Assembly (NCBI GenBank): GCA_937922045.1
Contig: CAKZXA010000042.1
Location: forward strand, 1-64,000
Direction: 5' to 3'
Length of the DNA stretch: 64,000 nucleotides
From: an uncultured Acidimicrobiales bacterium
GTDB taxonomy: Bacteria > Actinomycetota > Acidimicrobiia > Acidimicrobiales > SZUA-35
Shown here piece after piece: positions 3,219-59,751 of this stretch. The translations under genes and the position numbers were made by a program. The notes beneath the pieces were generated by a model. That model was not told the DNA's origin and did not search any database. It saw only the letters and a program-made list of their open reading frames with translations. The stretch's first letter is position 1. Every line of letters begins with the position of its first letter.

Positions 3219-3229
3219 AGTCGCGAGCC

Positions 3230-38049: not shown

Positions 38050-38475
38050 GTGTTTGTCGGCCAGTACGAGCATGCGGTCGATGAAAAAGGCCGTGTCGTC
38101 CTGCCCGCACCGTTCCGGGCCTTCGTGGCCGAACGTGGCTACATAACCCAGCTCGATGGATGTCTTGGATTGTGGAGTGCCGACGAGTTTCGACTCGTCG
38201 CAGAGAAATGGAAGGAAGAATCAGCAGCATCGAGAATCTCGATGAGGGTGTTCCGGAAACTGATGAACAGCGTGCGTGAGGTAAAGCTCGACGCAGCGGG
38301 ACGCATCACCCTCCCTCGAGAACTACTCGATCAGTTGAACTTCCAGTCGCAGGTTGTGGTCTGCGGCTTGTATGACCGAGTTGAGATCTGGCCAGCAGAA
38401 ACATATGCCGATGATCTCGATACTGATGAAGCGGCCGATGAGCTGGCTGAAGCGGTAGCCCGACTCGGGCTTTAA
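38050..38475 (+). CDS. mraZ: Transcriptional regulator MraZ
   Basis: 141 residues, two AbrB-like SpoVT domains: MFVGQYEHAVDEKGRVVLPAPFR and VREVKLDAAGRITLPRELLDQ, each with the DxxGRxxLP signature. MraZ binds DNA repeats upstream of its own operon and controls the dcw cluster. GTG start with AGGTGAGGTG a few bases upstream. First gene of the division/cell-wall cluster; the upstream triple repeat is its expected target. Confidence 0.95.
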   Translation: MFVGQYEHAVDEKGRVVLPAPFRAFVAERGYITQLDGCLGLWSADEFRLVAEKWKEESAASRISMRVFRKLMNSVREVKLDAAGRITLPRELLDQLNFQSQVVVCGLYDRVEIWPAETYADDLDTDEAADELAEAVARLGL

Positions 38476-38494
38476 TCAGCCAACAGTGGCCCGT

Positions 38495-38734
38495 ACGTAC
38501 CGATCGCTCCCGCCGGATTGATTGGAAGAGCTAGGAAGAAAGGAGCGTGGGCGACCCAAACCTATCGAAATCGTTCATCGATTACCTCCCGGGATGTGGA
38601 GAGGGGTGCTTCTGCCCCACGACTCCGCCCGCTACCCCTTTTAGTGCCACCCAGGAGATACAACCTGACGCACGTCGCAGTCCGGGGGGTTATCGATGGC
38701 CGATGCGTAGCTAGGGGAAGGCCCCGAACGAGCG
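38495..38734 (+). ncRNA. Candidate structured leader before rsmH (mraW-RNA-like position)
   Basis: The 259-base gap between mraZ and rsmH is long for this otherwise tightly packed cluster. It can form CGCTCC/GGAGCG (38505-38510 with 38542-38547), GGAG/CTCC plus GGGG/CCCC near 38600-38630, and AGGGG/CCCC just before the rsmH ATG. An actinobacterial mraW RNA motif is known at this position. I matched position and pairing potential, not the covariance model. Confidence 0.4.
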
Positions 38735-39721
38735 ATGGTTGCTTCTCAACCCGGCTCGGAGCCAGGGCCACCAGCATCAGGCAAGCCGACCGACGAGGTC
38801 GCGAGCGAAGCAGACGAGTTCGTTCACGACCCCGTCATGTGCGACGAGATCGTCGCATTGGCCGCGCCGGTTCCTTCTGGAACCTTTCTGGATGCAACGG
38901 TGGGTGGCGCCGGACACGCCGCTGCCCTTCTCGACGCACATCCCCACCTCGACATCCTCGGCATCGACCGTGACCCCGTTGCAGTCATGACGTCGACCGA
39001 ACGCCTGGCCCGGTTCGCTGGCCGCTACCGCATCGAGAGACTTCGATTCGATGAGTTTGATCAGCTCGGTTCGATACCGCTCTCCGGCTTTCTGTTCGAC
39101 CTTGGCGTGAGTTCTCCTCAGCTCGATCTTGGCGCCCGTGGCTTCAGCTTTCGTAACGATGGTCCGCTTGACATGCGAATGGATCCAGACATGCCTTTAA
39201 GCGCGTTCGAGGTCGTCAACAACTACGACGAGCGCGAGTTGGCGGCATTGATTCGGCGCTACGCCGATGAAAAGTTTGCCGGTCGAATTGCCGCTTCCAT
39301 CGTGGCCCGACGCCCACTGGCATCGACGAGCGAACTGGCCGAGGCGGTTGTGGCCGCGATCCCGGCGCCAGCCCGAAGAACCGGTGGCCACCCGGCGAAA
39401 CGAACCTTTCAGGCCATCCGGATCGAGGTCAACGACGAACTCAACATCCTGGCGCCCGCCCTCGAGTCGGCGCTGGATGCCCTCAGCGAGGGTGGCCGAG
39501 GCATGGTTTTGACCTACCACTCCGGCGAAGACCGCATCGTGAAGAGCGTGTTTCGCAATCGGACGGCGGTCGAGCAACCGCCCGGCCTGCCGGTCGAAGC
39601 TCCAACCCCGGACTACCGCATCGTGCGTCCGATGGCCCGCAGGCCTTCGGACGATGAGGTTGCGACCAACCGCCGATCGGCGAGCGCACGCCTCCGCACC
39701 ATCGAACGCCGAGCCGCTTGA
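38735..39721 (+). CDS. rsmH: 16S rRNA (cytosine(1402)-N(4))-methyltransferase
   Basis: 328 residues. SAM-dependent methylation of C1402 in 16S rRNA. The family blocks are VHDPVMCDEIV, GTFLDATVGGAGH (SAM motif I), GIDRDPVAV, GFLFDLGVSSPQLD, GPLDMRMD, HPAKRTFQAIRIEVNDEL and MVLTYHSGEDRIVK. The first ~33 residues are a Pro/Ser/Glu extension; no upstream in-frame start is possible because TAG (38708) closes the frame. The ribosome site is poor, in line with translational control by the leader. Confidence 0.95.
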   Translation: MVASQPGSEPGPPASGKPTDEVASEADEFVHDPVMCDEIVALAAPVPSGTFLDATVGGAGHAAALLDAHPHLDILGIDRDPVAVMTSTERLARFAGRYRIERLRFDEFDQLGSIPLSGFLFDLGVSSPQLDLGARGFSFRNDGPLDMRMDPDMPLSAFEVVNNYDERELAALIRRYADEKFAGRIAASIVARRPLASTSELAEAVVAAIPAPARRTGGHPAKRTFQAIRIEVNDELNILAPALESALDALSEGGRGMVLTYHSGEDRIVKSVFRNRTAVEQPPGLPVEAPTPDYRIVRPMARRPSDDEVATNRRSASARLRTIERRAA

Positions 39722-39789
39722 TGGCGCTTGTTCTTGTCGATCAATCGTAGAAATTTTATTCCCCGCAGAATCAACGAAAGGCCAATCCA

Positions 39790-40497
39790 ATGACCGCAGC
39801 AGTGGGCCGCCGCAGTTCCACCACTGTTAAAGCCAAAGCCGCTAAGGCGCCGCCTTCGGGTGGGCGTTCGCGCGGCCAACGTGGCCAACGCGGCCGTCGT
39901 TCGGACGGTCAGACCGCCCGGCAGCCAGGTCGTCGTACGTCAGAGTCTGCCGGTCAGTTCGGAGGGCTTCGTCTTTTTTCAAGGAGTGAACTCCGGGCTC
40001 GGGCTCGCTTGCGTGGCGGATTGGCCGCTCTTTGTCTTCTCATCGTTGGCGGATTCTTCTCCATCGCGTTTGTGCAAGCACAACTCGTTGCTGGCCAACA
40101 GGATCTCGACCAGATGCGAAGCCAGCTCGACGAGATCAAGAAGGAACGAGCCCAGCTGGCACAGGAGGTCGATCAGGCCTCGGCGCCCGAAGCTATTGTC
40201 GCCCGTGCTCACGAACTCGGCATGGTTCGAGCCACTGAGCCGATCTATCTCGCCGCTGTCTCACCAGCCCCGAAAATCTTGACGCCGGCATTTGTGGCCC
40301 CGGCCGACGACCGTGCCGAAGATCTTGTCGCGGCCCAGGTTTCCCCTCAACCGAGCATGTCGTCTGCCAATGCTGCGAAGAGTGACGAGGCAAAAGATGA
40401 GGCGAAGCCTGTCGTTGTGTTGACGGTGGACGACCCATCGACGGCCTCTCCGTTGGCGGGTTCAACAGCGGTAGTGGTTGGGCTTAGCGACGGATGA
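39790..40497 (+). CDS. FtsL/FtsB-like septum protein
   Basis: 235 residues. A basic, Gly/Arg-rich cytoplasmic tail (residues 1-~72), one membrane helix (GGLAALCLLIVGGFFSIAFVQ), then a short coiled coil (DLDQMRSQLDEIKKERAQLAQEV) and the AxELGMVRATEPIYL motif of septum initiator proteins. A Ser/Lys/Asp-rich periplasmic tail follows. Position between rsmH and ftsI, with the last 4 bases overlapping ftsI, identifies it as the FtsL equivalent, acting with FtsQ in the divisome. Low sequence conservation is normal for this family. Confidence 0.8.
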   Translation: MTAAVGRRSSTTVKAKAAKAPPSGGRSRGQRGQRGRRSDGQTARQPGRRTSESAGQFGGLRLFSRSELRARARLRGGLAALCLLIVGGFFSIAFVQAQLVAGQQDLDQMRSQLDEIKKERAQLAQEVDQASAPEAIVARAHELGMVRATEPIYLAAVSPAPKILTPAFVAPADDRAEDLVAAQVSPQPSMSSANAAKSDEAKDEAKPVVVLTVDDPSTASPLAGSTAVVVGLSDG

Positions 40498-42476
40498 CGA
40501 GGCGCCAGCCCCTCTCGCGGGATGAACGGCGGCGAGCGGACCGGCGGAAAGTTTTCCGGCGTACGACCGACCCGACCGATCCGCGGAGCCGGTTGTTCGC
40601 TGTTCTCCTGATGTTCTTCGTGTTCGGCGGGGTCTTGGCCGCCCAGCTGGTCAAGCTCCAGGCTGTTCGGCCCAACATTTACATCGAAGAGGGCGCCAAG
40701 CAGCGGGCTCGCGTCGAGCCACTCGCTGCGTATCGAGGGCAGATCGTCGATCGCAACGGCTTCGTTCTGGCCTCGTCGAGCGCAAGCTACCAGGTGATCG
40801 CAAACCCCAAAATGCTGGCCGAAGAAGACCCCTACCGAACCGCCGACCTATTGGCGCCGATTCTGAAACTTCCGGTTGAAGATGTGCTGGAAGCCGTTCT
40901 TCCTGCCAACGATGCCGACCAGTACGGGCTTGTAGCGCGAAGCGTCGATCAGGAAACAGCGCTCAAACTCGAGTCGCTTAGCCACGATGATGAGCTCGAC
41001 GATTTCATGATTGGCATCTTCATCGAGCCAGATGAGAAGCGGACCTACCCCGCAGGAGAGCTGGGCAAACCCCTCGTTGGGCGCGTCGATCCCGACGAGG
41101 TCGGCATCTTTGGCGTCGAGAAACAGTTCGACGACGTCATGACCGGGGTAGCAGGATTCGAACAGTTCGAAGGTGGTCGCTTCGGTTCCATAAGCTCAGG
41201 AGAGTGGCGGACGAACCCGGCCATCGCAGGCCTCGACGTCGTCCTCACCATCGATCATCGCATTCAGTTTGTGGTCGAAGAGGCGTTGAAAGCTCACTGT
41301 GAGGAGGTAGACGCCAATGGAGCGACTGCCGTTCTCACCGAGCCTGGGACCGGCAACGTACTGGCGATGGCCTCGGTCGTAGAGGGCGAAGATGGCGCTT
41401 GTTTCGTGCCGAACTACAACAAGGCGCTGGTCGAGTGGTTCGAACCCGGTTCTGTGTTGAAGACGGTCACCGCCGCGGCCGCCATCGAGGAGTTGGGCTA
41501 CACCCCCGACACCATGATCGAGGTTCCACCATCGATTTCGATCGGTGGCGCCACCTTTGCCGACGACCCCACCCACCCCGCCGCACCTTTTCCTCTTTCG
41601 CAGATCCTGTCTCGGTCTATGAACGTTGGAACGATCACGTTGGCGCAACGGCTTGGGGCAGGCGAGGTCTACAACTATCAGCGACGTTTCGGTCTCGGCC
41701 AACCGACCGGTCTCGACTGGCCAGGAGAGACGAGTGGTCGAGTCAAGGAACCAAACGAATGGTGGGGGAGCGATGCGGGTTCTATCCCCATCGGCCAAGG
41801 CATCGCCGTGACGGCGACCCAGCTCGTCGCCCTCTACAACTCCATTGCCAATGATGGGCATTATCGTTCAGTCCGGCTCGTCGAAGGGCTTCGCACCTCT
41901 GACGGGTCGACCATCCCGCTTGAGGTACCACCATCGAAGGCCGTGGTTAGCGAGCAAACGGCCGAGTACGTGACCCAACTCCTCGCCGGCGTCGTGAACG
42001 AGGGCACGGGGCGTTCCGCCTCGATCGACGGCTACCAGGTGGCGGGAAAGACAGGAACAGCCTGGAAGGTCTTTGACAATGGTTCAGGACAGCACACGTA
42101 TGGCACATACCTCGATCGTCGATATGTCGTGACGTTCGCCGGTTTCGTGCCATCGGAGAATCCGGCCTTGTCAATGGTGATCGTGGTCGATGAACCGAAA
42201 ACGGCAACCACCGCGTCGGCCGTGGCGGCGCCGATCTTTGCCGAGGTGGGTCTTTACGCACTGCAGATCCTCGGCATTGCTCCCCAACAGCCAAACACCG
42301 GCGGCTCCGAACGAGTCAGGGCCCCAACCGCTGGCGTGGAGGCGATGCCTCCGCTCGAAGAGCCAGCCCAAGAAACAGCCCAAGAAACAGCCGAGGACCA
42401 AGGATTGAACGGAGCGGCAGCCACCGCTGGAGCTAGCACCGAAAAACCTTCGAGTGATGGGACTGACGAGCCGTGA
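40494..42476 (+). CDS. ftsI: Septal penicillin-binding protein (FtsI/PbpB)
   Basis: 660 residues; division-specific DD-transpeptidase. A cytoplasmic basic stub, one membrane helix (about residues 38-58), then the dimerisation domain beginning YRGQIVDRNGFVLAS. The catalytic domain has EPGSVLKTVTAAAA (S-x-x-K), SRSMNVG (S-x-N) and VAGKTGTAWKV (K-T-G). The C-terminal tail is Ala/Glu/Thr-rich with a duplicated AQETAQET. It overlaps both neighbours by four bases, which indicates coupled translation. Confidence 0.95.
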   Translation: MTRRQPLSRDERRRADRRKVFRRTTDPTDPRSRLFAVLLMFFVFGGVLAAQLVKLQAVRPNIYIEEGAKQRARVEPLAAYRGQIVDRNGFVLASSSASYQVIANPKMLAEEDPYRTADLLAPILKLPVEDVLEAVLPANDADQYGLVARSVDQETALKLESLSHDDELDDFMIGIFIEPDEKRTYPAGELGKPLVGRVDPDEVGIFGVEKQFDDVMTGVAGFEQFEGGRFGSISSGEWRTNPAIAGLDVVLTIDHRIQFVVEEALKAHCEEVDANGATAVLTEPGTGNVLAMASVVEGEDGACFVPNYNKALVEWFEPGSVLKTVTAAAAIEELGYTPDTMIEVPPSISIGGATFADDPTHPAAPFPLSQILSRSMNVGTITLAQRLGAGEVYNYQRRFGLGQPTGLDWPGETSGRVKEPNEWWGSDAGSIPIGQGIAVTATQLVALYNSIANDGHYRSVRLVEGLRTSDGSTIPLEVPPSKAVVSEQTAEYVTQLLAGVVNEGTGRSASIDGYQVAGKTGTAWKVFDNGSGQHTYGTYLDRRYVVTFAGFVPSENPALSMVIVVDEPKTATTASAVAAPIFAEVGLYALQILGIAPQQPNTGGSERVRAPTAGVEAMPPLEEPAQETAQETAEDQGLNGAAATAGASTEKPSSDGTDEP

Positions 42477-43888
42477 GCGCGACGCTAGCTGAGATCCATC
42501 AGGCCGTTGGAGGCCAACTCGTTCAACTCGATTCCGGACAGCCGGCTGATGACGTTGTCATTGTCGATGCCACCCATGATTCGCGTCAGGCCACCGCCGG
42601 CTGGATGTTTTGCGCCGTGCCGGGAGCAGCTGTCGATGGCCATGATTTCGCAACCGTGGCGCTCGAAGCGGGTGCTAGCGCCCTCTTGGTCGAGCGAGAA
42701 CTCGACCTGAGCGTCCCCCAGTTGGTCGTTGATGACGCCCGGTTCGCCATGAGTCACGTAGCGTGCACCGTGCATCGATCTCCGTCGTCTGAGCTGATCG
42801 TTGTCGGCGTGACCGGAACCAATGGCAAGAGTTCCATCGTGCAACTCCTCGTCGACATCTGTGAGACCGATGGGCGCCCGAGCAAGATGGTCGGGACGTT
42901 GCAGGGTCCGAGGACGACACCAGAGTCAACGGATCTCCAACGTCTCCTACGCGAGTTTGCCGACGCTGGGGTACAGGTGGTGGCGATGGAGGTCTCCTCC
43001 CACGCCCTTGCACTCCATCGGGTCGCTGGCGTCGAGTTCGCTTGCGGCATTTTCACCAACCTCGGTCGTGATCATCTCGATTTTCACCACACGGTCGACA
43101 ACTACTTTGAGGCCAAGGCCCAACTCTTTGATGAGCCTCTGACTCGGCTGGGCATCGTCAACATCGACGACAGCTACGGCCGCCAGCTGGCTGATCGTAT
43201 GACGATCGACCTTGTTCCGTACAGTCTCGACGATGCCGGTGCCGTGGCCTACGACGGTGCTCGGTCAAGGTTCACCTGGCGAGGTCACGTCATATCCCTT
43301 GGCCTGGCCGGTGCGTACAATGTGTCGAATGCTCTCGGGGCAGCTACCGCTGCGGCCGCGATTGGTATCGCGGAAGACTCGATCGTTACCGCTCTAGGAC
43401 AGACCAGGCCGGTGCGGGGTCGGTTTGAAATGGTTGATGGGGGTCAACCCTTCATCGTCGCCGTCGACTACGCTCACACACCTGACGCCCTTGAAGCTGC
43501 ACTTGTTGCTGCTCGTCAGGTCGCAGGGAAGAGTCGCGTCCTTGTTGTTTTTGGCTGTGCGGGAGATCGAGATGCCCAGAAGCGACCTGAGATGGGCCAA
43601 GCTGCCGAGAAAGGTGCCGACGTGGTCGTTGTAACCTCAGACAATCCACGATCTGAGGATCCGGTTCAAATCATCGATGGGGTCCTGGCCGGATTCGATG
43701 CGCCAGAACGAGCCATCGTCCTCGCTGATCGACGGGACGCCATCGAGCGGGCTCTGTCGCTGGCCGAACCCCACGACGTCGTGCTGATCGCGGGCAAGGG
43801 TCACGAGACCTATCAGATAGTTGGAGACCAGACCCTCGATTTCGACGACCGCGCCGTCACCCTTGAACTGCTGGAGGCTGCCACATGA
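42473..43888 (+). CDS. murE: UDP-MurNAc-tripeptide synthetase, predicted meso-diaminopimelate-adding
   Basis: 471 residues. ATP-dependent addition of the third amino acid to UDP-MurNAc-L-Ala-D-Glu. The P-loop VGVTGTNGKSS, the carbamylated-Lys region and VDYAHTPDALEAAL (Mur ligase) are present, and TSDNPRSEDP is the DNPR motif linked to meso-diaminopimelate selection. GHETYQ closes the family pattern. It is directly followed (4-base overlap) by mraY; the murF gene that normally stands here is absent. Confidence 0.95.
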   Translation: MSATLAEIHQAVGGQLVQLDSGQPADDVVIVDATHDSRQATAGWMFCAVPGAAVDGHDFATVALEAGASALLVERELDLSVPQLVVDDARFAMSHVACTVHRSPSSELIVVGVTGTNGKSSIVQLLVDICETDGRPSKMVGTLQGPRTTPESTDLQRLLREFADAGVQVVAMEVSSHALALHRVAGVEFACGIFTNLGRDHLDFHHTVDNYFEAKAQLFDEPLTRLGIVNIDDSYGRQLADRMTIDLVPYSLDDAGAVAYDGARSRFTWRGHVISLGLAGAYNVSNALGAATAAAAIGIAEDSIVTALGQTRPVRGRFEMVDGGQPFIVAVDYAHTPDALEAALVAARQVAGKSRVLVVFGCAGDRDAQKRPEMGQAAEKGADVVVVTSDNPRSEDPVQIIDGVLAGFDAPERAIVLADRRDAIERALSLAEPHDVVLIAGKGHETYQIVGDQTLDFDDRAVTLELLEAAT

Positions 43889-44961
43889 TTCGACTGCTGC
43901 TCGGTGCGGGTATCTCCTTTGGGCTGGCTGCTCTCTTTACCCAACTGTTGATCGATCTGCTGCGACGTTCTCGAATCGGACAACCAATTCGTGAAGATGG
44001 CCCGCAGGGGCACATGGTGAAGGCCGGGACCCCGACAATGGGCGGCGTAGGCATCGTGCTTGGAGCGGCGATCGGCTACCTGTTTAGCCACCTGATTCTG
44101 ACGCTCACAACCTCGCGCGAGGGCACGTTCACGCGTTCGGGTTTGCTCGTGATGGGCACGATCTGCGCTGCAGCCTTTGTCGGTTTCATGGATGATTGGA
44201 TCAAGGTTTCTCGCGAGCGCAACCTTGGTCTCAACGCTCGCCTAAAAACGGCTGGTCTGCTCACGGTTGCCGTAGGGTTTTCGCTGCTCGCCCTTCAGTT
44301 CACCACCGTTGAGACTTCACTAGGGTTCCTTCGCCACGACTTTCTGGGAATCGAACTTGGGTCTGCTGGTTGGGTGCTTTGGTCGGTGCTGATGATCTAC
44401 GCAACGTCGAATGCGGTCAACCTCACCGACGGGCTCGATGGTCTTGCCGCCGGTTCTGGGATCTTCTCCTACGCCGCCTACACCTTGATCGGCTTCTGGA
44501 TCTTCCGTCAGCTCAGCGACGGAGACGATTTCAACGACATTTATGATGTGCCACACGCTCTCGACCTTTCGGTCGTGGCCGTTTGCATGTTGGCTGGTTG
44601 CGCGGGCTTTCTCTGGTTTAACGCAGCACCGGCCGACATCTTCATGGGTGACACCGGTTCGCTTGCGATCGGAACAGGTCTCGCCACACTGGCGCTTGTG
44701 ACCAACACTCACCTGCTGTTGCCCGTCATTGGTGGCATCTATGTGGTCGAGGCGGCCTCGGTCATGCTGCAGGTCGGCTACTTCAAGATCACCGGCGGCA
44801 AGCGCTTGTTTCGCATGGCTCCGATTCATCACCATTTCGAGCTCCGAGGATGGGCTGAGACCAAGGTCATCATCCGCTTCTGGCTGATCGGTGGTGCCCT
44901 GACACTGTTCGCACTTGGGATCTTCTACGCCGACTACGTAGCGGCTGTTCAGCTCGAATAG
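43885..44961 (+). CDS. mraY: Phospho-MurNAc-pentapeptide transferase (lipid I synthesis)
   Basis: 358 residues with ten membrane helices. MraY transfers phospho-MurNAc-pentapeptide to undecaprenyl phosphate at the inner membrane face. Hallmarks: GHMVKAGTPTMGGVGI, the double Asp FMDDWIKV, NLTDGLDGLAAGS, FMGDTGSLAIG and MAPIHHHFELRGW. ATG overlaps the murE stop. The 65 bases after its stop contain no murD, which is the usual next gene. Confidence 0.96.
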   Translation: MIRLLLGAGISFGLAALFTQLLIDLLRRSRIGQPIREDGPQGHMVKAGTPTMGGVGIVLGAAIGYLFSHLILTLTTSREGTFTRSGLLVMGTICAAAFVGFMDDWIKVSRERNLGLNARLKTAGLLTVAVGFSLLALQFTTVETSLGFLRHDFLGIELGSAGWVLWSVLMIYATSNAVNLTDGLDGLAAGSGIFSYAAYTLIGFWIFRQLSDGDDFNDIYDVPHALDLSVVAVCMLAGCAGFLWFNAAPADIFMGDTGSLAIGTGLATLALVTNTHLLLPVIGGIYVVEAASVMLQVGYFKITGGKRLFRMAPIHHHFELRGWAETKVIIRFWLIGGALTLFALGIFYADYVAAVQLE

Positions 44962-45026
44962 TACGAACAGTCACCTCGAACTACGAAAAATCAAGACAAC
45001 GACGACCGAAGAAAGGAGACGACGAG

Positions 45027-46790
45027 ATGAGTAGGCCACCACAACGTAGAAATGGAACGACGGCGACGAAACGAAGCTCCGCTCGTCGAACCTCCCAACC
45101 GTCTCGAGCTGGTTCCACGCAGCGTTCGACGAAGAAGACAGCCAAGAAGACTGCATCGCGTAAGCCTGTGGCCAAGAAGGCCACAGCTAAGCGGACCACA
45201 GCCAAGAAGACAGCAACCAAGAAGACAGCAACCAAGAAAACAGCATCGCGTAAGCCTGCGGCGAAAAGGTCGACTGCTCGAAAACCTGTCGCAAAGAAGG
45301 CGACGGCCAAGAGGACCACAGCCAAGAAGGCCGCATCGCGTAAGCCTTCGGCCAAGAAGGCGACGGCCAAGAAGTCGACTGCTCGGAAACCTGCTGCCCG
45401 GAAGGCCACGAGCCGTAGATCGACAGGTCGTAAAACAACAGGTAACAAATCAATTCAGGGCAAGACGAGCGCCCGCTCTGCGGCCGAACGTCGGCGCGCT
45501 GCGGAACGCGGTGAGCTCGTATCGGCGACCCCCGGGGTAATCGACGTGGCCCGCCGCAACGCTGTTGGACGATCGGTCGGCCGGAGTCGGCCTGCATCAC
45601 AGACACAGCGGACCCGAAAACCACGAGCGAAACCGAAGACCTCGTCGAACGAACGGTCGCGCCGAAAGCGATCGCTGCGCATTACCGAGGTCGGCGAACG
45701 CTACGCCGCCTACCTGTCGCTCACCTTCCTTGGGCTCAGCCTCTTTGGCCTTGTGATGGTGCTGTCGGCAGCGTCGGTAACAAGCCTCCATTCAGAGGCC
45801 GCCTCTCCCTTTTTCCAGTTCAAGTCGCAAGCCCAGTGGGCCGCGATCGGATTGATTGCTTTCGTGGTGGCGGCCAAGATCGACTATCGGCAGCTGCGCC
45901 GCTTCGCTGCGCCAGGGATGATTGTTACCTTTGCGCTTCTGGTCGTCGTATTGATCCCTGGTGTCGGGCGAGAGGTCAACGGGGCCCAGCGATGGATCGG
46001 CGTTGGATCCTTCGTCATCCAGCCCGGTGAGTTGGCGAAGCTTGCTCTCGTCATCTTTGCTGCCGATCTGTTGGCCCGACGCGAGCGCCGCATGGATCGA
46101 CCTGAGCTTACGGTTCGACCGATCATGCTGACGGTGCTGGGCCTCTCGGCCCTGATCCTGCTGCAACCCAAGCTCGGAACGCCGATTATCCTCGCTGCCG
46201 TCGCCCTCCTTCTGCTCTTCGTATCAGGGGCTCGCCTAACGTCCTTGGCCGGGTGGACGACCTTTCTTGTTATCGCTGCTGCTGGCGCTGCATGGATCGA
46301 TGAGGAACGGCGAAGCCGCCTGTTGTCGTTCCAGGATCCCTGGCAGTTCAAACAGGGCGATGGTTTCCAGCTGATCCAAAGCCAGATCGGCGTTGTCGAT
46401 GGTGGCCTCTTTGGTGTCGGACTTGGCGGCAGCAAGGCCAAATGGGGATTTCTGCCATTCGCCCACACCGACTTCATCTTCGCCATCGTGGCTGAGGAGC
46501 TTGGATTCATCGGCGCCGTCTCGCTGATTGCGGCCTTCGTTCTCGTGGCGTGGCTGGGTATTCGAGCCTCAGGCCGTGCACCAGACCGATTTGGCATGCT
46601 GCTCGCTGCAGGCATCACACTCTGGCTTGTCTTTCAGGCATTTCTCAACATCGGCATGGTGATTGGAGTCTTGCCGGTCACGGGTGAGACGTTGCCCTTC
46701 ATCTCCGCCGGAGGATCGAGCCTTGTGACGATGCTGACAGCAGCAGGACTTTTAACGAACGTGGCCCGGCGAGGAGTAGACGATGACTGA
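45027..46790 (+). CDS. ftsW: FtsW lipid II glycosyltransferase with N-terminal histone H1-like lysine-rich tail
   Basis: 587 residues. Residues 1-~225 are a Lys/Ala/Arg/Thr/Ser low-complexity domain of repeated KKATAKR, AKKTAT and SRKPxAKK units, like the C-terminal tails of histone H1 or HU/Hc1-type bacterial proteins. The membrane part starts near residue 225 (YAAYLSLTFLGLSLFGLVMV) and has the SEDS pattern: FQFKSQAQW, GAQRWI, QPGELAKLALVI, the GGSKAKWGFLPFAHTDFIFAI loop, and LPVTGETLPFISAGGSS. The ATG has a strong AAGGAG eight bases upstream, so the tail is part of the protein. FtsW polymerises septal glycan; the tail must be cytoplasmic, where it could contact nucleic acid. Confidence 0.93.
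   Translation: MSRPPQRRNGTTATKRSSARRTSQPSRAGSTQRSTKKTAKKTASRKPVAKKATAKRTTAKKTATKKTATKKTASRKPAAKRSTARKPVAKKATAKRTTAKKAASRKPSAKKATAKKSTARKPAARKATSRRSTGRKTTGNKSIQGKTSARSAAERRRAAERGELVSATPGVIDVARRNAVGRSVGRSRPASQTQRTRKPRAKPKTSSNERSRRKRSLRITEVGERYAAYLSLTFLGLSLFGLVMVLSAASVTSLHSEAASPFFQFKSQAQWAAIGLIAFVVAAKIDYRQLRRFAAPGMIVTFALLVVVLIPGVGREVNGAQRWIGVGSFVIQPGELAKLALVIFAADLLARRERRMDRPELTVRPIMLTVLGLSALILLQPKLGTPIILAAVALLLLFVSGARLTSLAGWTTFLVIAAAGAAWIDEERRSRLLSFQDPWQFKQGDGFQLIQSQIGVVDGGLFGVGLGGSKAKWGFLPFAHTDFIFAIVAEELGFIGAVSLIAAFVLVAWLGIRASGRAPDRFGMLLAAGITLWLVFQAFLNIGMVIGVLPVTGETLPFISAGGSSLVTMLTAAGLLTNVARRGVDDD
45120..45440 (+). repeat. Degenerate lysine-codon repeats in the ftsW 5' region
   Basis: Imperfect tandem units of roughly 9-42 bases built on GCCAAGAAG, ACAGCC and GCATCGCGTAAGCCT recur; the GCATCGCGTAAGCCT block appears at least three times (near 45151, 45243 and 45331). 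They encode the Lys/Ala-rich tail and are likely to vary in copy number by recombination or slippage. Confidence 0.85.
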
Positions 46791-48018
46791 TCTGACCGCT
46801 GATGTCCCGACCGACGCCAGCTTCATCATTACTGGAGGTGGCACCGCTGGACACACCAACCCCGGGATTGCGGTAGCTCAAGCGCTCGTCGCCCGCGGTG
46901 TGCCGCAACACCAGGTCCACTTTGTTGGAGCGAAACGAGGCAACGAGGGCAAGCTGGTGTCAGCGGCCGGCTTCTCGATCGATTTGCTTCCTGGACGCGG
47001 GGTGCAACGACGGCTGACCAGAGCCAACATCGGCGCGGTCACCGGGCTCATCGGCGGCATGTTCAAAGGTCTTGCCATCGTGGCAAAGCGGCGGCCCAAG
47101 GCCGTTCTTTGCCTTGGGGGGTATGCCGCATTTGCAGCTTCAGCTGCCGCTGTCGTGCTTCGTATTCCGCTCATCGTGACCGAACAAAACGCACGAGCCA
47201 GCGCAGTCAATCGCCTCTTCGGGCCCCGAGCCCGTCGCTGTGCACTGCCTTTCCCCGATACCGATTTGCCAAACGGTGAGCTCACCGGCAATCCGATTCG
47301 AGCTGAGGTCGTGACGTCGGTTCAGCAAGCGGACCGGCAACGATCCCGCACCGACATCGTGACCCGCTATCGCCAGGCCAACCCTGAAAGCGACGTGGCC
47401 GACACAGCCCTCGATGGCAGAGTGTTGCTGGCGGTGTGGGCAGGATCGCTGGGAGCCACCCGCGTCAACAATGGTGTCGCTGAGCTGGCGAAGGTCTGGG
47501 CTGACCGCAGCGATGTGGCGATCTATCACATTGTGGGCCGACGGGACTGGTCCCGATTCGAAGCACCACCAGCGACTGAGACCGATGGCCTGCTCTACCT
47601 CACGGTCGACTACGAAAACCACATGGCCGATGTGCTTGTTGGCGCAGATCTGGCGCTGTGCCGGGCCGGCGCCTCGACCGTGGCTGAACTGGCCGTTGCA
47701 GGATTGCCATCGCTTCTCGTCCCCCTGCCGAACGCTCCCCGAGATCATCAGCGGGCCAACACCGCCGAGCTCGAAGCCGCAGGGGGCGCTCATGTGCTCG
47801 ATGATGCTGATGTCTCTGCCGACCGGCTGGATCTCCTTCTTGCGCCGCTGCTAACCGATGCTCGGAAGCGGCAAACCATGGCCGAGGCGGCTGCATCCAC
47901 CGCTCGCCCTCAAGCTGCCGACGCCGTCGCCTGCCTCCTGCTGGAAGCTGCTGGCGCTACCGGCCTGATCACCTCGTCCAACGCCGAACCACCGTTTGAT
48001 TTTGAGAAGAGGATATGA
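46783..48018 (+). CDS. murG: UDP-GlcNAc:lipid I N-acetylglucosaminyltransferase
   Basis: 411 residues. Converts lipid I to lipid II at the cytoplasmic membrane face. IITGGGTAGHTNPGIAVAQAL carries the N-terminal glycine-rich loop (with Ala as in many actinobacteria), then VHFVGAKRGNE, GGYAAFAASAAAVVLRIPLIVTEQNA, LTGNPIR and the UDP-binding DLALCRAGASTVAELAVAGLPSLLVPLP. Start overlaps ftsW by 8 bases. About 25-50 residues longer than typical, mainly by an insertion around residues 180-205. Confidence 0.95.
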   Translation: MTDLTADVPTDASFIITGGGTAGHTNPGIAVAQALVARGVPQHQVHFVGAKRGNEGKLVSAAGFSIDLLPGRGVQRRLTRANIGAVTGLIGGMFKGLAIVAKRRPKAVLCLGGYAAFAASAAAVVLRIPLIVTEQNARASAVNRLFGPRARRCALPFPDTDLPNGELTGNPIRAEVVTSVQQADRQRSRTDIVTRYRQANPESDVADTALDGRVLLAVWAGSLGATRVNNGVAELAKVWADRSDVAIYHIVGRRDWSRFEAPPATETDGLLYLTVDYENHMADVLVGADLALCRAGASTVAELAVAGLPSLLVPLPNAPRDHQRANTAELEAAGGAHVLDDADVSADRLDLLLAPLLTDARKRQTMAEAAASTARPQAADAVACLLLEAAGATGLITSSNAEPPFDFEKRI

Positions 48019-48021
48019 CCC

Positions 48022-49440
48022 GTGGGTCTCCCCCCGAAGAACACTCCACCGGCGAACACTGTCGATCTGTCGACACCAACGACGGTTCACATCGTTGGCA
48101 TAGGGGGCGCTGGCATGAGTGCCATCGCTGAAATCCTCGTAGGTACAGGCCATGAGGTGAGCGGCTCAGACCTGAATGGATCAGCCGTCGTCGAGCGGCT
48201 ACGGGAGCGCGGAATCATGGTGGCTGTCGGCCACGATGCAGCGAACCTTGGAGATGCTGAAGTTGTGGCTCACTCGACCGCAATCCCGGCAACCAATCCC
48301 GAGCTCGTCGCCGCGGTCGAAGGCGGTCTACCGGTTCTAAGGCGAGCCGACATTTTGGCCGCCATCACCAGAACGTGGTCGACGGTCTCGGTCGCTGGCA
48401 CCCATGGCAAAACCACGACCTCAGCGATGCTGACGATCGCCTTGAAGGGATCGGGTTTCGACCCGGCCTACATCGTCGGCGGTGATCTCCGCGATCTCGA
48501 TAGGGGAGCGGCGGTCGGATCTGGGGAGCTGCTCGTCGTCGAGGCCGACGAGAGTGACGGCACCTTTGTCGAACTTGATTCTCATGCCGTCATCGTCACC
48601 AACGTCGAACCCGACCACCTGGAGCATTACGGCGGCTTCGAGCCGCTGCGAGAGGCCTTCGTCCGCTTCGTACGGCAGGCTACCGGCCCCAAGGTGCTGT
48701 GCGCCGACGACCCAGGCTCGGCGGCCTTGGCCGAGCTCTTGGAAGGCACTCCCTCGCTCATCACCTACGGCACCGACCCTTCGGCAACGTGGCGCATCGT
48801 CGAACCTGTGCCGACCCCTTCGGGCGTCAGTTTTAAGGTCGTTGGCCCAGGCGGCGAAGCCAAGCTGAACCTGGGTCAGCCCGGCATGCACAATGCGCGC
48901 AATGCCACCGCCGCTCTTGTGACCGCTATAGCTCTTGGGGCCGACCTGGCGCGTGCGGCCGACGCTCTGTCGAACTTCGGCGGGGTAGGCCGCCGCTTCG
49001 AGCATCGAGGTAAGGCGGCGGGCGTGACGTTAGTAGACGATTACGCCCACCTCCCGACCGAGGTTGAGGCCGCCTTGTCCGCGGCTCGTTCCCTGGGACC
49101 CGAGCGACTCGTCGTGGCCTTTCAGCCCCATCGTTACAGCCGGACCGAGCAGCTTTGGTCGACCTTCGGCGACTCCTTCGTCGATGCCGACGTCCTCTTC
49201 GTCACGGGGATCTACGCCTCTGGTGAGGCCCCTCGGGAGAACATCACCGGCGACCTGATAGCGAAGGTCGTCTCCGAAGCCCACCCCGATCAGGACGTAC
49301 GGTATGTCGAATTACTCGACGATCTTGTTCCTGCGCTCGCCGCCGAACTCGGGTCTGGCGATCTCTGTATGACCTTGGGAGCGGGAGACCTTACCCTTAT
49401 CCCTGATCGTGTCTTGGCCGCGCTGGAGACAAAGGCCTGA
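48022..49440 (+). CDS. murC: UDP-N-acetylmuramate-L-alanine ligase
   Basis: 472 residues. First amino-acid addition to UDP-MurNAc. VHIVGIGGAGMSAIAEIL (Rossmann-like UDP site), VAGTHGKTTTSAML (P-loop), VVEADESDGTF, NVEPDHLEHYGG, GMHNARNATAA, and DDYAHLPTEVEAAL are all typical. GTG start, with GAGGA nine bases upstream; murG stops four bases before. Gene order murG-murC is as in most bacteria. Confidence 0.95.
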   Translation: MGLPPKNTPPANTVDLSTPTTVHIVGIGGAGMSAIAEILVGTGHEVSGSDLNGSAVVERLRERGIMVAVGHDAANLGDAEVVAHSTAIPATNPELVAAVEGGLPVLRRADILAAITRTWSTVSVAGTHGKTTTSAMLTIALKGSGFDPAYIVGGDLRDLDRGAAVGSGELLVVEADESDGTFVELDSHAVIVTNVEPDHLEHYGGFEPLREAFVRFVRQATGPKVLCADDPGSAALAELLEGTPSLITYGTDPSATWRIVEPVPTPSGVSFKVVGPGGEAKLNLGQPGMHNARNATAALVTAIALGADLARAADALSNFGGVGRRFEHRGKAAGVTLVDDYAHLPTEVEAALSAARSLGPERLVVAFQPHRYSRTEQLWSTFGDSFVDADVLFVTGIYASGEAPRENITGDLIAKVVSEAHPDQDVRYVELLDDLVPALAAELGSGDLCMTLGAGDLTLIPDRVLAALETKA

Positions 49441-49441
49441 C

Positions 49442-50386
49442 GTGAACAGACTGGACGCCTTGGCGGACGCGATCGGGACAACCGTCCAACGAGATGTGGC
49501 GCTAGGACCGCTCTGCACCTACAAGGTAGGTGGAGCAGCCAGCGTCTTTGTCGAAGCCTCGTCGACCGCTGATCTCGAGGCCGTTCGCTCCGCTTTGCTC
49601 CACGTCTATCCCGATCCGGACAGCCAATGTCCGGTCCTGGTGATTGGGAAGGGATCGAATCTTCTGGTGGCCGATCGGGGTGTGGCTGGGCTGGTCGTCA
49701 CCCTGGGCGATGCCTTCGCCGAGATCGATATAGATGAGGGTCGCCAGCAGGTCAGGGCGGGGGCTGCTGCCTTCCTCCCTGTCGTCGCCCGTCGCAGTGC
49801 TGCTGCCTCGTTGACCGGGTTCGAATGGGCGGTGGGCGTTCCGGGCTCGATCGGTGGCGCCGTTCGTATGAACGCCGGTGGCCACGGCTCCGACATGGCG
49901 GCTTCGCTGGTGCGCGTGTCAGTCTTTGACCTACGAGAGGGTGGCCCGTCCGAACGTGAGACCGCCGAGCTCGAACTTGGGTATCGCCACTCCAACCTGG
50001 CGTCGCATCAGATCGTTCTCTTCGCCGAACTCCAGCTTCGATCCGGTGAGCGTTCGGAATCCGAAGCCGAGATCAGCGAGATTGTTCGCTGGCGTCGAAA
50101 GAATCAACCCGGTGGACAAAACGCCGGGAGTGTCTTTGCGAATCCTGAAGGGGATTCGGCGGGGCGCATCATCGATGGCCTGGGTCTCAAGGGGCTCAGG
50201 GTGGGGACGGCCTCGGTCTCCGATAAGCATGCCAATTTCATTCAGGCCGATCCCGCAGGGTCCGCCGACGACGTCTTCACCCTGGTGCGTGACGTTCAGC
50301 AAAGGGTTTTTGACCGCACCGGCATTGAGCTGCGGCCGGAAAACCTTCTGATCGGTTTTGACCCAGATGGCGGTGAGCACTCGTGA
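49442..50386 (+). CDS. murB: UDP-N-acetylenolpyruvoylglucosamine reductase
   Basis: 314 residues. FAD/NADPH-dependent reduction to UDP-MurNAc. TYKVGGAASVFVEA, VIGKGSNLLVADRGV, VPGSIGGAVRMNAGG (FAD site), YRHSNL and QPGGQNAGSVFANP with catalytic Ser, and SDKHANFI with Lys/His identify it. GTG 49442 starts one base after the murC stop; an earlier in-frame start (49409) would overlap murC by 32 bases. murB is often outside the cluster in actinobacteria, so its place between murC and ftsQ is worth noting. Confidence 0.94.
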   Translation: MNRLDALADAIGTTVQRDVALGPLCTYKVGGAASVFVEASSTADLEAVRSALLHVYPDPDSQCPVLVIGKGSNLLVADRGVAGLVVTLGDAFAEIDIDEGRQQVRAGAAAFLPVVARRSAAASLTGFEWAVGVPGSIGGAVRMNAGGHGSDMAASLVRVSVFDLREGGPSERETAELELGYRHSNLASHQIVLFAELQLRSGERSESEAEISEIVRWRRKNQPGGQNAGSVFANPEGDSAGRIIDGLGLKGLRVGTASVSDKHANFIQADPAGSADDVFTLVRDVQQRVFDRTGIELRPENLLIGFDPDGGEHS

Positions 50387-51366
50387 AACAGTCGGCCACC
50401 CGCCCGGACCGGATGCCCAAGTCCACCAAGAGCAGCCGTCCGTCGGCTCGCCCGAACCCTCCGTCTCGACCGCCTCGGGCCCGTACCGCTCCTAAGGGTC
50501 AGCGGCGAGCGATGGACGATCGCTTCAGCAGCCGCCGGATGGAGGCTGAACGCCAAGCAGGAGCCCGCCGTTTGCGAATAGTTGCTGCACTGAGTGCTCT
50601 GTCGACGCTGTTCATCATGGCGATCGGCTTCGTCAACAGCTCATGGTTCGCGGTCGATGAAGTTCTGGTTGTTGGTTCAGAGCGTTCCAACTCGCTCGAC
50701 ATCATTGAGGCCTCGGCCATCTCGGTTGGCCTGGGCCTTCTCGATGTGGATGCGGAAGCCGCAAGTCGCAGGGTGGAGCAGGTTCCCTGGGTTGGCACGG
50801 CCGACGTTCGACGCTCGTGGAATGGCCGTGTCGAAATTGCGATCGTGGAACGGGGCCCCGTCGCTGCTCTTCCGGCGCCCGGTGGCTACGCCATGGTCGA
50901 CCATTGGGGCCGTCAGCTCGAGGTTGTCGAGGCGCCAGGCGAGGGCTTCATCGCGATCAGTGGTGTGCAGGCGTCGGGAGTTCCTGGCGAGCTGGCTCCG
51001 GCCGAGTCGGCCCAGGTGATACACCTGGTTCAGGCTCTGGTGCCGTCGGTCGAGAGACAGATCGACGTTATCAGCCTGATCGACAACCAAGTGGTAGTAG
51101 ATTTGGCAGTGGGTGGGCAAGCGCGGTTCGGCGATGCAACCGACATCGAGCTCAAGGTTCAATCGCTGGAGACCCTACTCGAACGGGTAGATCTTCGGTG
51201 CTTGGCCATGATCGATGTCAGTGTGCCGTCCGCTCCTTCGGTCAGGAGAATCGATGAGAATACCTCAGCAGATGTCAGGCTCGGCGACGATGGTGAAGAG
51301 CCCGTTGGCGATAGCAGCGAAAATGATGGTGAACAAGAACCTAATGCCGCCATCAACGACTGCTAG
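50383..51366 (+). CDS. ftsQ: Cell division protein FtsQ
   Basis: 327 residues. A Pro/Arg/Ser-rich cytoplasmic tail of about 65 residues, one membrane helix (IVAALSALSTLFIMAIGFV), a POTRA domain starting WFAVDEVLVVGSERSNSLDI, and the FtsQ beta domain (WVGTADVRRSWNGRVEIAIVERGPVAAL). Binds FtsL/FtsB in the periplasm and links early and late divisome. An acidic C-terminal tail rich in Glu/Asp is present. Overlaps murB by 4 bases. Confidence 0.9.
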   Translation: MKQSATRPDRMPKSTKSSRPSARPNPPSRPPRARTAPKGQRRAMDDRFSSRRMEAERQAGARRLRIVAALSALSTLFIMAIGFVNSSWFAVDEVLVVGSERSNSLDIIEASAISVGLGLLDVDAEAASRRVEQVPWVGTADVRRSWNGRVEIAIVERGPVAALPAPGGYAMVDHWGRQLEVVEAPGEGFIAISGVQASGVPGELAPAESAQVIHLVQALVPSVERQIDVISLIDNQVVVDLAVGGQARFGDATDIELKVQSLETLLERVDLRCLAMIDVSVPSAPSVRRIDENTSADVRLGDDGEEPVGDSSENDGEQEPNAAINDC

Positions 51367-51378
51367 CCTGGGTAGTCA

Positions 51379-52512
51379 ATGAGCAGCCAGAACTATGTGG
51401 CCGTCGTCAAAGTCGTCGGTGTCGGCGGCGGCGGGTGCAACGCAGTAAATCGAATGATTGACGCCGGGTTGCGAGGCGTCGAATTCGTCGCGGTCAATAC
51501 CGATGCCCAGGCGCTGCTAATGAGCGACGCCGAGGTCAAGATCCATATCGGCCGGGAACTCACACGAGGTCTCGGGGCCGGTAGTGATCCTGCGGTCGGT
51601 GAGCAGGCGGCCGAAGAACACCGCGATGAGATCAGCGAAGCCCTCTCCGGGGCCGACATGGTCTTCATCACCGCGGGTGAGGGCGGAGGAACCGGAACCG
51701 GTGCTGCCCCGGTCATCGCTGAGATCGCCAAGAGCCAAGGGGCGCTAACGATCGCTGTGATCACTCGTCCCTTCAGGTTCGAGGGGCGCCGCCGAGCGGC
51801 CCAGGCCGATGACGGCATCAAGAAGCTCCGGGACAAGGTCGATACCCAGATCGTTATCCCGAACGACCGATTGCTCTCGATCGCCGATGATGATACTTCG
51901 ATGGTGGCCGCCTTCCGGATGGCCGACGAGATCCTTCTGCAGGGTGTCTCCGGTATCGCCGACCTGATCACCACACCTGGCCTGATCAACACCGACTTCG
52001 CCGATGTACGCATGATCATGCACGAGGCTGGCAGCGCCCTGATGGGGATCGGGCGAGCGCAGGGCGAGAACCGCTCTGTGGCTGCGGCTCGGGCCGCTAT
52101 CGCGAGCCCACTGCTGGAGGCATCGATCGAAGGCGCACGCGGCATCCTGTTGACGATTGCTGGGTCGAGCGAGCTCGGCCTGTTCGAAGTCAACGAGGCG
52201 GCGGAGATTATCCATGATGTCGCTCATCCCGATGCTAACATAATCTTCGGCACGGTTGTCGATGAAACATTGGATGATGAGATCCAAGTCACGGTTATCG
52301 CCGCTGGGTTCGACCGCTACGACGAGGACTCACCCCTGCTCGAATCTCAGGGTCCAGCCTTTACGACGAGGGAATCCTCGGAGCGTGAAGACCAGCAGCC
52401 TGCGGGCCGTTCTGGCCGCCAGGAGCCTCGACGCGAGTCTTTTGAACTCTTCGACGATGAGGATCTCGACGATCCTGATGACGAGTTCGACGTCCCATCG
52501 TTTCTGAGGTAG
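51379..52512 (+). CDS. ftsZ: Cell division GTPase FtsZ
   Basis: 377 residues. Tubulin-like GTPase forming the Z-ring. [16 protein letters not shown], the tubulin signature [19 protein letters not shown]7-loop [17 protein letters not shown], and [10 protein letters not shown] are intact. The C-terminal linker is acidic ([10 protein letters not shown]) and ends VPSFLR, the conserved peptide that binds SepF or other tethers. No ftsA precedes it, as usual for actinobacteria. ATG lies 12 bases after ftsQ. Confidence 0.97.
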
Positions 52513-53290: not shown

Positions 53291-53989
53291 ATGTCGCTGT
53301 TGCGAGCGTTGCGCGCGTATGTGGGCCTCGGCCCTGATGATGGGTACGAAGGCGAGTATCTGCGCGACCTTGACCCGGCGGAACCGACCATCGATCTTAC
53401 GGAATCCTCTACCCCAACCTCGAGGTCAGGATCAGCTGGATCGTCTCGGCCGGGCAACAACGCCTACAAGGCGGCCTCAGCCGACGAGCTCGCTCGACTG
53501 GGGTTCGATCGCATCGAGAAGCCGTCCAATGGAGTGGGAAATGGTGCCCACGTAAAGCGAGCAGCCGACGCTCACCGTGCCGAAGAGCATCGAGCTGAAG
53601 CCACGGAGGCCGAGCTTCGTGCTGAATTCGCTGATGAGCAGCAGACCTCGGTAGATAACCAACAAGACGCGGACCAACAGCAAGGACACGCCGTGGTGCA
53701 CTCCCTCGATTCGATTCGAACCAAGCCCAAGACGATCGTTCCAGAAACGTTCTCTGACGCAAAGCTGGTGGCCGATGAGTTCAAATTGAACGTTCCGGTC
53801 GTCCTGAACCTTCAAGGTAGCGATCGTGAACTAGCCCGTCGCCTCATCGATTTCACGTCGGGGCTCTGTTACGCACTGGATGGGAGCATGGAGAAGATTG
53901 CCTCCCAAGTCTTCCTGGTTACTCCCGACGGCATTGCGATTGACGATGAGGACCGTGACAAGATTAAGCAGCGAGGGTATGCGCGATGA
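53291..53989 (+). CDS. sepF: Cell division protein SepF
   Basis: 232 residues. N-terminal MSLLRALRAYVGLGPDDGYE resembles the amphipathic membrane-targeting start. A long Ser/Thr/Glu/Gln-rich linker (residues ~35-150) follows, then the SepF core (PKTIVPETFSDAKLVADEF, VVLNLQGSDRELARRLIDFTSG, QVFLVTPDGI). SepF tethers and bundles FtsZ and replaces FtsA in actinobacteria. AAGGAG seven bases before ATG. Linker is longer than in most relatives. Confidence 0.94.
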   Translation: MSLLRALRAYVGLGPDDGYEGEYLRDLDPAEPTIDLTESSTPTSRSGSAGSSRPGNNAYKAASADELARLGFDRIEKPSNGVGNGAHVKRAADAHRAEEHRAEATEAELRAEFADEQQTSVDNQQDADQQQGHAVVHSLDSIRTKPKTIVPETFSDAKLVADEFKLNVPVVLNLQGSDRELARRLIDFTSGLCYALDGSMEKIASQVFLVTPDGIAIDDEDRDKIKQRGYAR

Positions 53990-59056: not shown

Positions 59057-59154
59057 ACGCCGACCTTTGGCCCACGCGGTTTCGCGTCCGCGAGACGGCC
59101 TAGGGCATCTATTCGTAGGTCAAGTACCAACACAAAGGCACGGTGAAGTACGAA

Positions 59155-59751
59155 ATGGCCGCCAAAAAATCAACCACAAAAAAGTCGGCTGCCAAGTCGG
59201 TCAAGAAGACGACCAAGAAGGCACCAGCCAAGAAGGCTGCGGCAAAGACGACCAAGAAGGCAGCGGCTAAGAAGGCCCCATCCGCTGAAACGGCAGCGCC
59301 AGCAAGGAAATCGAGCGGCTACAGGTCGGCGAACACAAAGATCACGCCGCCATCCGAACGCGTAATCCCCAAGTCAGCCAAGTTCCTCTTCGACAAAAAG
59401 TGGTTGGCCGACCAGAAGGCATCGCTGGAGCGCGAGCGTGAGAACTACACCAACAGCGCTGAACGGTTGGCCGCCGAGGCCGCGGCCTTGATGGCCGATC
59501 GCGAACCCGGCGACGTGCAGTTCGACGAGGAGTCAGGCGAGGGCGACACGATCGCCGTTGAACGCGATCGAGATCTCGCCCTGTCGGCGGCTGCTTTGCA
59601 GTCGGTGGCAGAGATCGACGCTGCCCTCGAACGGCTGGAGAAGAACACCTACGGTCTTTGCGTTGCTGGTGATGACGTGATCCCCAAGGAACGGCTTGAG
59701 GCGATTCCTGAGGCCTCGGTCTGCGTCCAACACAAGACATCGATGTTCTAG
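59155..59751 (+). CDS. DksA/TraR-like protein with lysine/alanine tail and degenerate zinc finger
   Basis: 198 residues. Residues 1-~45 are a KKSAAKS/KKAAAKTTKK-type basic tail. Residues ~75-170 form the coiled-coil hairpin of TraR/DksA proteins (WLADQKASLERERENY, ALQSVAEIDAALERLEKNTYG). The C-terminal end matches the DksA zinc-finger frame (TYGLCVAGDDVIPKERLEAIP, ASVCVQH) but the second Cys of each CxxC pair is missing, so zinc binding is doubtful. Start at ATG 59155 uses GGTGA eight bases upstream; GTG 59143 is an alternative. Divergent from ileS and followed by lspA. May modulate RNA polymerase or bind DNA; unproven. Confidence 0.8.
   Translation: MAAKKSTTKKSAAKSVKKTTKKAPAKKAAAKTTKKAAAKKAPSAETAAPARKSSGYRSANTKITPPSERVIPKSAKFLFDKKWLADQKASLERERENYTNSAERLAAEAAALMADREPGDVQFDEESGEGDTIAVERDRDLALSAAALQSVAEIDAALERLEKNTYGLCVAGDDVIPKERLEAIPEASVCVQHKTSMF

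Follow-up and report, generated by a model that had tools for sequence, protein, structure and literature searches.

The FtsW encoded in the dcw cluster of the window (the whole stretch of 64,000 nucleotides that was analysed here) carries a basic N-terminal tail of 225 residues ahead of its membrane core. Basic cytoplasmic tails are often present on FtsW of Actinomycetota, and judged by sequence comparison this one appears to be their Acidimicrobiia version. A role as a DNA sensor is less likely for it than one as a sticky tether that holds FtsW to the division ring or the membrane. The gene comprises the following features:

45013..45018, + strand: AAGGAG ribosome-binding site, 8 nt 5′ of the ATG, read from the sequence
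45027..46790, + strand: ftsW with basic N-terminal tail, 587 aa
45027..45701, + strand: N-terminal tail of 225 aa with a net charge of +69; its AF2 pLDDT stays near 40 for the most part
45132..45434, + strand: H1/HC2-like stretch, residues 36–136; of its 21 dibasic pairs, 20 follow a strict five-residue register (counted by eye)
45474..45506, + strand: short predicted helix in the tail, residues 150–160 (AF2, low to moderate confidence)
45675..45701, + strand: juxtamembrane motif LRITEVGER, with G223 invariant and T220 and R225 at ≥90% in 12 aligned orthologues
45702..46787, + strand: SEDS glycosyltransferase core, with D482 aligned to D275 of Pseudomonas aeruginosa FtsW

The identification as the FtsW of a dcw cluster, already proposed from the sequence alone, is borne out by the NCBIfam model ftsW (TIGR02614), which matched residues 230–582 with 367.1 bits (cut-off 337.5), and by the position of the gene between mraY and murG, its ATG sitting 65 nt past the mraY stop. 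The gene order of the cluster is mraZ, rsmH, ftsL, ftsI, murE, mraY, ftsW, murG, murC, murB, ftsQ, ftsZ, yggS-like and sepF, where we take mraZ, rsmH, mraY, murC, murB, ftsZ and yggS to be what their translations suggest. The HTDF motif aligns between the window FtsW and the solved P. aeruginosa FtsW and places D482, invariant in all 12 aligned orthologues, at D275, presumably the catalytic aspartate. The genes murD and murF are absent from the cluster (window 38050–52512) and have their best matches on other contigs, murD at G000:C104:25311 (210.4 bits, slightly below the cut-off of 211.95) and murF at G000:C19:59843 (365.5 bits, above the cut-off).

The sequence-only reading had also noted a strong ribosome site, and the AAGGAG motif before the ATG confirms this. 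No ribosome motif was found at the internal GTG codons at positions -178 and -52 of the window tail, and in several relatives, G009 and G006 among them, the start of the tail is the sole in-frame ATG, GTG or TTG ahead of the first helix. Taken together, the ribosome site, the synonymous codon pattern described below and the relatives lacking internal in-frame starts argue against a wrong start or an artefact, and they provide good, albeit indirect, sequence evidence that the window tail is translated and selected.

Residues 1–225 contain 37 Lys and 39 Arg, but only 6 Glu and 1 Asp (76 K + R versus 7 D + E), no aromatic residue and 14 large hydrophobic residues. The exact five-residue spacing of the 20 dibasic pairs begins at residue 40, and the K/R autocorrelation at lag 5 amounts to 0.85 over residues 31–140, a value reached by none of 2000 shuffles. 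While the initial description of a 225-residue tail holds, the KKATAKR-type repeats that it assigned to the entire tail are confined, as far as their KK part is concerned, to residues 36–136. By the topology of FtsW, the tail is presumably cytoplasmic, as are both ends of the protein. The AF2 model, built from an alignment of 12 sequences and with a mean pLDDT of 64.0, exceeds a pLDDT of 70 for much of the membrane core, residues 441–482 being poorly modelled, and the low pLDDT of the tail suggests together with its composition that the tail is disordered. Being membrane-proximal, positive and of low predicted order, the tail resembles the basic disordered tails of actinobacterial divisome proteins. 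The C-tail of the window FtsW has 8 aa and a net charge of -1, and is hence no long basic C-terminal tail.

The Pfam family HC2 (PF07382) was matched with 51.6 bits by the whole protein and with 90.6 bits by the tail alone (cut-off 40), whereas no Pfam family was matched by any of the five shuffled copies of the tail which were scanned, out of six generated. As the tail matches HC2 and the shuffles do not, the order of the residues matters as well as their composition, which excludes a pure composition effect. The NCBIfam HC2 model yielded 45.7 bits, far below its cut-off of 135. Pentamers of chlamydial Hc2 are described as consisting of two basic and three other residues, chiefly Ala but also Val, Thr and Pro (PMC2848022), and pentamers of this type, with two basic and three small residues, are present in the window tail. 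Pfam match and pentamer plan together bear out the H1-like character initially ascribed to the tail. The repeat is, however, in one frame with a polytopic membrane enzyme, so that the protein is not a free soluble nucleoid protein.

On the DNA level, 21 pairs of identical hexapeptides were found in residues 31–150, of which just one is also identical in its DNA, 50 of 126 codons being different. Repeat pairs seeded on DNA differ 108, 71 and 213 times at codon positions one, two and three, respectively, with the highest number at position three, and the offsets of the DNA-level repeats were divisible by three in 169 of 169 overlapping segment pairs. The same peptides thus occur with different codons, and most of the repeat is maintained as a peptide and not as fresh DNA. 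Two short 15-nt arrays (2.9 and 2.1 copies, 93–96% matches) are near-identical, which shows that some local slippage is recent.

For a comparison with relatives, 61 genomes were searched with the FtsW core, 37 from the GTDB family of the window and 24 from other families of the order. An FtsW locus was obtained from 36 of the 37 family genomes, the remaining one (G036) containing only a paralogue of 38% identity, and 21 of the 24 other genomes were used, as G037, G057 and G060 gave only weak, RodA-like matches. For the comparison of the termini, the family loci L010 and L034 were dropped and L062, with a partial core, was not taken. The choice of start codons followed a rule (a ribosome motif first, then ATG or GTG) and was made by hand in 14 cases, which leaves a corresponding uncertainty in all tail lengths. 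A basic N-tail with net positive charge was present in 33 of 33 measurable family FtsW, its length extending about tenfold from roughly 29 residues (G014) to roughly 326 (G013, R-rich, masked stretch included). The tail is therefore not absent in close relatives, an outcome that would have counted against the initial claim. A one-off fusion with a histone gene was rejected on the basis of these relatives with basic tails and of an HC2 search of the genome, which beyond FtsW gave only two weak matches below the cut-off, in larger genes. The closest named matches (53–69% identity) were mostly titled Acidimicrobiales, Acidimicrobiia or Acidimicrobiaceae, and a few only Actinobacteria, Actinomycetota or Actinomycetes.

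Upstream open regions with at least 15 Lys occurred at 9 of 36 family loci, with the Lys count of L010, located at a contig end, being a lower bound; none was found at 21 loci from other families of the order, 70 loci from the phylum and 20 RodA loci. The RodA paralogue had no tail in 20 of 20 family RodA, and a general SEDS feature is excluded by this result and by the short N-tails outside the phylum. When 44 FtsW cores were placed on a tree, being Lys-rich required at least seven changes and a length of ≥120 required six; these counts are rough, because support is poor for 15 of the 41 inner branches. Many family tails start with MTxT (by eye). The repeat unit comprises five residues in G009 and the window genome (G000), six in G021 and, by eye, 17 in G023; relative L062 exhibits four near-perfect 17-residue copies (also by eye). 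Many other family tails are rich in Arg, Ser and Thr and lack the pentamer, and HC2 was matched by only two of the eight other family FtsW tails scanned, both below the cut-off. The presence in 33 of 33 proteins, the conserved motif before helix 1 and the MTxT starts suggest that the common ancestor of the family probably had a basic tail already, whose middle then grew repeatedly with different repeats.

As both ends of FtsW are presumably cytoplasmic, both were compared. In the family (n = 33), the N-tail has a median length of 80 aa and a net charge of +19, the C-tail 6 aa and +3, and the N-tail is the more basic one in all 33 proteins. In other families of the order (n = 21), the values are 47 aa and +9 for the N-tail and 15 aa and +3 for the C-tail, with the N-tail being more basic in 18. 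In the phylum sample (n = 65), the N-tail has 31 aa and +5 and the C-tail 40 aa and +7, the C-tail being more basic in 41 and the N-tail in 21. This sample was gathered with the ftsW model as 70 loci, one each from 70 of 119 genomes, from which L196, L234, L245, L246 and L251 were dropped; as most of the loci were taken from among the better-scoring matches, with G076 added from further down the list, the sample leans to typical FtsW. A summed net tail charge of at least +5 was found in 33 of 33 family, 19 of 21 order and 59 of 65 phylum proteins, and in 13 of 25 FtsW placed outside the phylum by their record titles, where the sum has a median of +5 and a maximum of +11 and the N-tail a median of 9 aa and +2. 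Set against this maximum, the summed charges suggest that Actinomycetota frequently have a basic cytoplasmic tail on FtsW, with a stronger charge than elsewhere, and that the family of the window has it at the N-terminus and lets it grow.

The charges of N- and C-tail are anticorrelated over all genomes (rho -0.37). As no such correlation exists within any group, a small number of events at the level of lineages may account for the use of a different terminus. At least 10 Lys were counted in eight C-tails of the phylum sample (99–133 aa). Seven loci of family f47 (L188, L191, L199, L200, L206, L211 and L213) encode FtsW C-tails of 99–126 residues with 14–21 Lys, and these are the C-terminal counterpart of the window tail.

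Other divisome proteins of the window exhibit charged terminal regions as well:

39790..40014, + strand: basic N-tail of FtsL, 75 aa, net +17
40494..40598, + strand: basic N-tail of FtsI, 35 aa, net +8
50383..50562, + strand: basic N-region of FtsQ, 60 aa, if the start is the GTG at 50383 (the start rule picked a shorter, neutral form of 17 aa)
52435..52509, + strand: acidic C-end of FtsZ, last 25 aa, net -11, ending in an 11-residue sequence (letters not shown); proposed partner
53291..53725, + strand: N-terminal region of SepF together with its linker (145 aa, net -10), which may be a partner

In a survey of the window and the 25 named clusters closest to it, with each gene counted where it was on the contig, net positive N-tails were found in 15 of 15 FtsL, 16 of 16 FtsI, 20 of 22 FtsQ and 26 of 26 FtsW, and the N-region of SepF was net negative in 18 of 19. 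MurG, intended as a control, was net positive in 10 of 16 and negative in two of 16 cases, and in 7 of 16 the charge close to the core was at least +3, so that there is nothing special about a mildly positive N-region as such. The last 25 residues of FtsZ have charges from -5 to -11 and are negative in 32 of 32 proteins with a complete end motif, which was used to pick them and itself contains one or two acidic residues. The charges of FtsW tail and FtsZ end correlate weakly (rho -0.40, p 0.034, n = 28, uncorrected for kinship; L064, L080, L090 and L094 of the 32 omitted for doubtful starts or masking). Within the family, rho is -0.39 (p 0.14, n = 16), and over the last 60 FtsZ residues the family correlation is gone (rho 0.01). 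Lysine-repeat N-tails are also present on FtsQ of L082 (92 aa; HC2 32.5 bits, below the cut-off) and L081 (61 aa) and, in less strict form, on FtsI of L079, and in FtsK of the window genome, whose start position is provisional, a basic stretch precedes the first helix.

Similar lysine repeats occur elsewhere in the window genome. When codons for KK[AT][AT][AT]K were searched for, 16 sites were obtained (none in the reversed control). One of them is out of frame with the overlying ORF, and the other 15 are distributed over FtsW, an NYN-S1-like nuclease, a DksA-like protein and a WS/DGAT-like acyltransferase; such repeats on the C-tail of topoisomerase I and the N-tail of a ParE/GyrB-type subunit came from other searches. 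By their translations, four of the six repeat-bearing genes found look like enzymes acting on nucleic acids or a factor of the RNA-polymerase type, where the names topoisomerase I, NYN-S1, WS/DGAT and ParE/GyrB are our reading of these sequences and not model matches. The DksA/TraR-like gene (window 59143–59751) has a lysine-repeat N-tail and a weak Pfam zinc-finger match below the cut-off and is located 5′ of an lspA-like gene. The putative nuclease (L146, G000:C69, complement 1516–3060 of the locus) combines an NYN-type nuclease and an S1 domain with a Lys/Ala-rich, H1-like C-tail of about 130 residues. The WS/DGAT-like acyltransferase (L183, G000:C50, complement 1485–3281 of the locus), by its apparent family a lipid enzyme, has a lysine-rich C-tail of K/R period six and is an odd place for an H1-like repeat. 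The single HU found in the genome (92 aa) has no lysine-repeat tail. The FtsW tail may or may not have been copied from another lysine-repeat gene of the genome: its DNA shares only short similar stretches with these genes, the best being 79% over 56 nt at the topoisomerase I locus, which could be explained by shared codons.

With chances that we consider nearly even, the tail tethers FtsW electrostatically to the acidic Z-ring (the FtsZ C-end and perhaps SepF) and/or to the anionic septal membrane. Its evenly spaced Lys/Arg pairs would engage acidic partners where the cell divides in a loose and multivalent complex, first the Asp/Glu-rich C-end of FtsZ and perhaps also the SepF linker, and second anionic septal lipids. 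Such a complex would keep the septal glycosyltransferase at the Z-ring, along with FtsL, FtsI and FtsQ and their smaller basic tails, and if binding were set by charge density and not by sequence, the length of the tail would be free to drift. We infer this binding and tether function from the 33 of 33 basic N-tails combined with stub C-tails, the RodA without tails, the positive tails of FtsL, FtsI and FtsQ and the acidic ends of FtsZ. In M. tuberculosis, C-terminal aspartates of FtsZ are required for FtsW binding (PMC3989709) and the C-end of FtsW is the partner of FtsZ (PMC4285798). The basic cytoplasmic N-region of M. tuberculosis FtsQ binds acidic membranes and the GTPase domain of FtsZ, not its C-tail (PMC10036325), and by analogy this preference may speak against the tether. 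So do the weak charge correlation between FtsW tails and FtsZ ends and the N/C anticorrelation that is missing within groups, with a terminus difference that may go back to very few events. Moreover, positive N-regions are not strictly divisome-specific, as seen for MurG, summed tail charges of +5 were also reached in 13 of 25 FtsW outside the phylum, though none exceeded +11, and the strict pentamer period exceeds what a charge tether needs.

It appears somewhat unlikely that anionic lipids such as cardiolipin and phosphatidic acid are all that the tail binds, in which case it would confine FtsW to the negatively curved septal membrane with FtsZ being no direct partner. Such lipid binding fits with the N-extension of mycobacterial FtsK, positive and disordered, which is reported to bind both lipids and to constrain diffusion (PMC13277299), with the tail directly abutting the first helix and with the presence of a similar repeat on the putative acyltransferase. 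However, with its lack of aromatic and few large hydrophobic residues the tail would bind by charge only, and lipid binding alone leaves the tail-free RodA unexplained. That the tail instead binds DNA or RNA as Hc2/H1 tails do, thereby coupling nucleoid position to septal synthesis as initially proposed, seems rather unlikely, even though the HC2 match exceeds the Pfam cut-off, the tail follows Hc2 in combining two basic with three small residues (PMC2848022) and similar repeats are carried by the apparent topoisomerase I, the ParE/GyrB-type subunit, the NYN-S1 nuclease and the DksA-like factor; the lysine repeats of actinobacterial TopA are described as stabilising the TopA-DNA complex (PMC7398561). 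Against nucleic acids stand the just two sub-cut-off HC2 matches among eight other FtsW tails, the many Arg/Ser/Thr-rich family tails without pentamer, the basic tails on FtsL, FtsI and FtsQ, the more frequent location of the basic tail at the C-end in the phylum sample and the FtsK N-extension, for which no detectable DNA shift is reported (PMC13277299). The more far-reaching proposal of a nucleoid-tethered FtsW, whose Hc2-type tail binds chromosomal DNA so that septal wall synthesis waits for or is placed by the chromosome, a nucleoid occlusion by a membrane enzyme which a single family would have evolved as its ancestral basic tail grew time and again, is quite unlikely.

It is very doubtful that the tail is a near-neutral low-complexity sequence, lengthened by slippage and positive only via the positive-inside rule. 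Although the tenfold variation in tail length, the near-perfect copies in L062 and the two 15-nt arrays of the window tail agree with such drift, the peptide repeat is kept over most of the window tail with differing codons, and the charge is positive in 33 of 33 proteins while RodA of the same genomes is tail-free. Polyphosphate or another polyanion is a most improbable partner; the H1-like AlgP with its tail of KPAA repeats associates with polyphosphate granules (PMC9239181), but no link of FtsW or its location to polyphosphate was found in this analysis. The TopA lysine repeats and AlgP are the reason for keeping DNA and polyanions as possible partners beside those of the electrostatic tether, the reading preferred here.

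Among the open-licence PubMed Central papers listed for this subject, no report of an FtsW with an N-terminal extension, an H1-like sequence or a disordered or cytoplasmic tail was found. The initial statement that no FtsW of this kind had been described stands for the H1-like N-tail within this literature; it does not extend to basic FtsW tails as such, which are not unique. An FtsW whose tail is built from Hc2-like pentamers thus appears undescribed in the searched literature, as does the N-terminal placement of this tail in Acidimicrobiia, whereas basic disordered divisome tails are already known. Such tails are a young topic, with the studies found concerning mycobacteria. The family of the window offers a natural series for the function of the tail (FtsZ, membrane or DNA), with its approximately tenfold length range, differing repeats, FtsL/FtsI/FtsQ companions and tail-free RodA, and because much of the phylum uses the other terminus, the idea of an FtsW-FtsZ tether is directly testable.

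Compared with known systems, the window tail shares with Hc2/HctB (PF07382) the variation in repeat number and the five-residue unit, in which two residues are basic and three small. Hc2 is, however, a free chromatin protein, whereas the window repeat is part of a membrane enzyme, and unlike the Hc2-type tail of the window, six of the eight other family FtsW tails scanned lack an HC2 match. Actinobacterial TopA (PMC7398561) is a housekeeping enzyme with a lysine-repeat appendage from the same phylum, but its repeats are C-terminal, belong to a DNA enzyme and raise processivity. The FtsQ N-region (PMC10036325) and ChiZ (PMC7355643) of M. tuberculosis are largely disordered, charged and cytoplasmic parts of the actinobacterial divisome like the tail; yet FtsQ forms an Arg/Ala helix, and Lys pentamers are reported for neither protein in the available text, unlike for the window tail. 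The N-extension of mycobacterial FtsK (nFtsK, PMC13277299) is similarly long, positive, disordered and lineage-specific, is part of a divisome membrane protein and varies in length between species, but it belongs to another protein, is Arg-rich, measures about 95 and 121 aa in two species and is reported as non-DNA-binding. FtsW of mycobacteria and other Actinomycetota agrees with the window in being a SEDS septal glycosyltransferase with a basic cytoplasmic tail and an acidic, Asp-rich FtsZ C-end at its side, with the difference that the tail is more often C-terminal there, while in the window it is N-terminal and built from H1-like pentamers.
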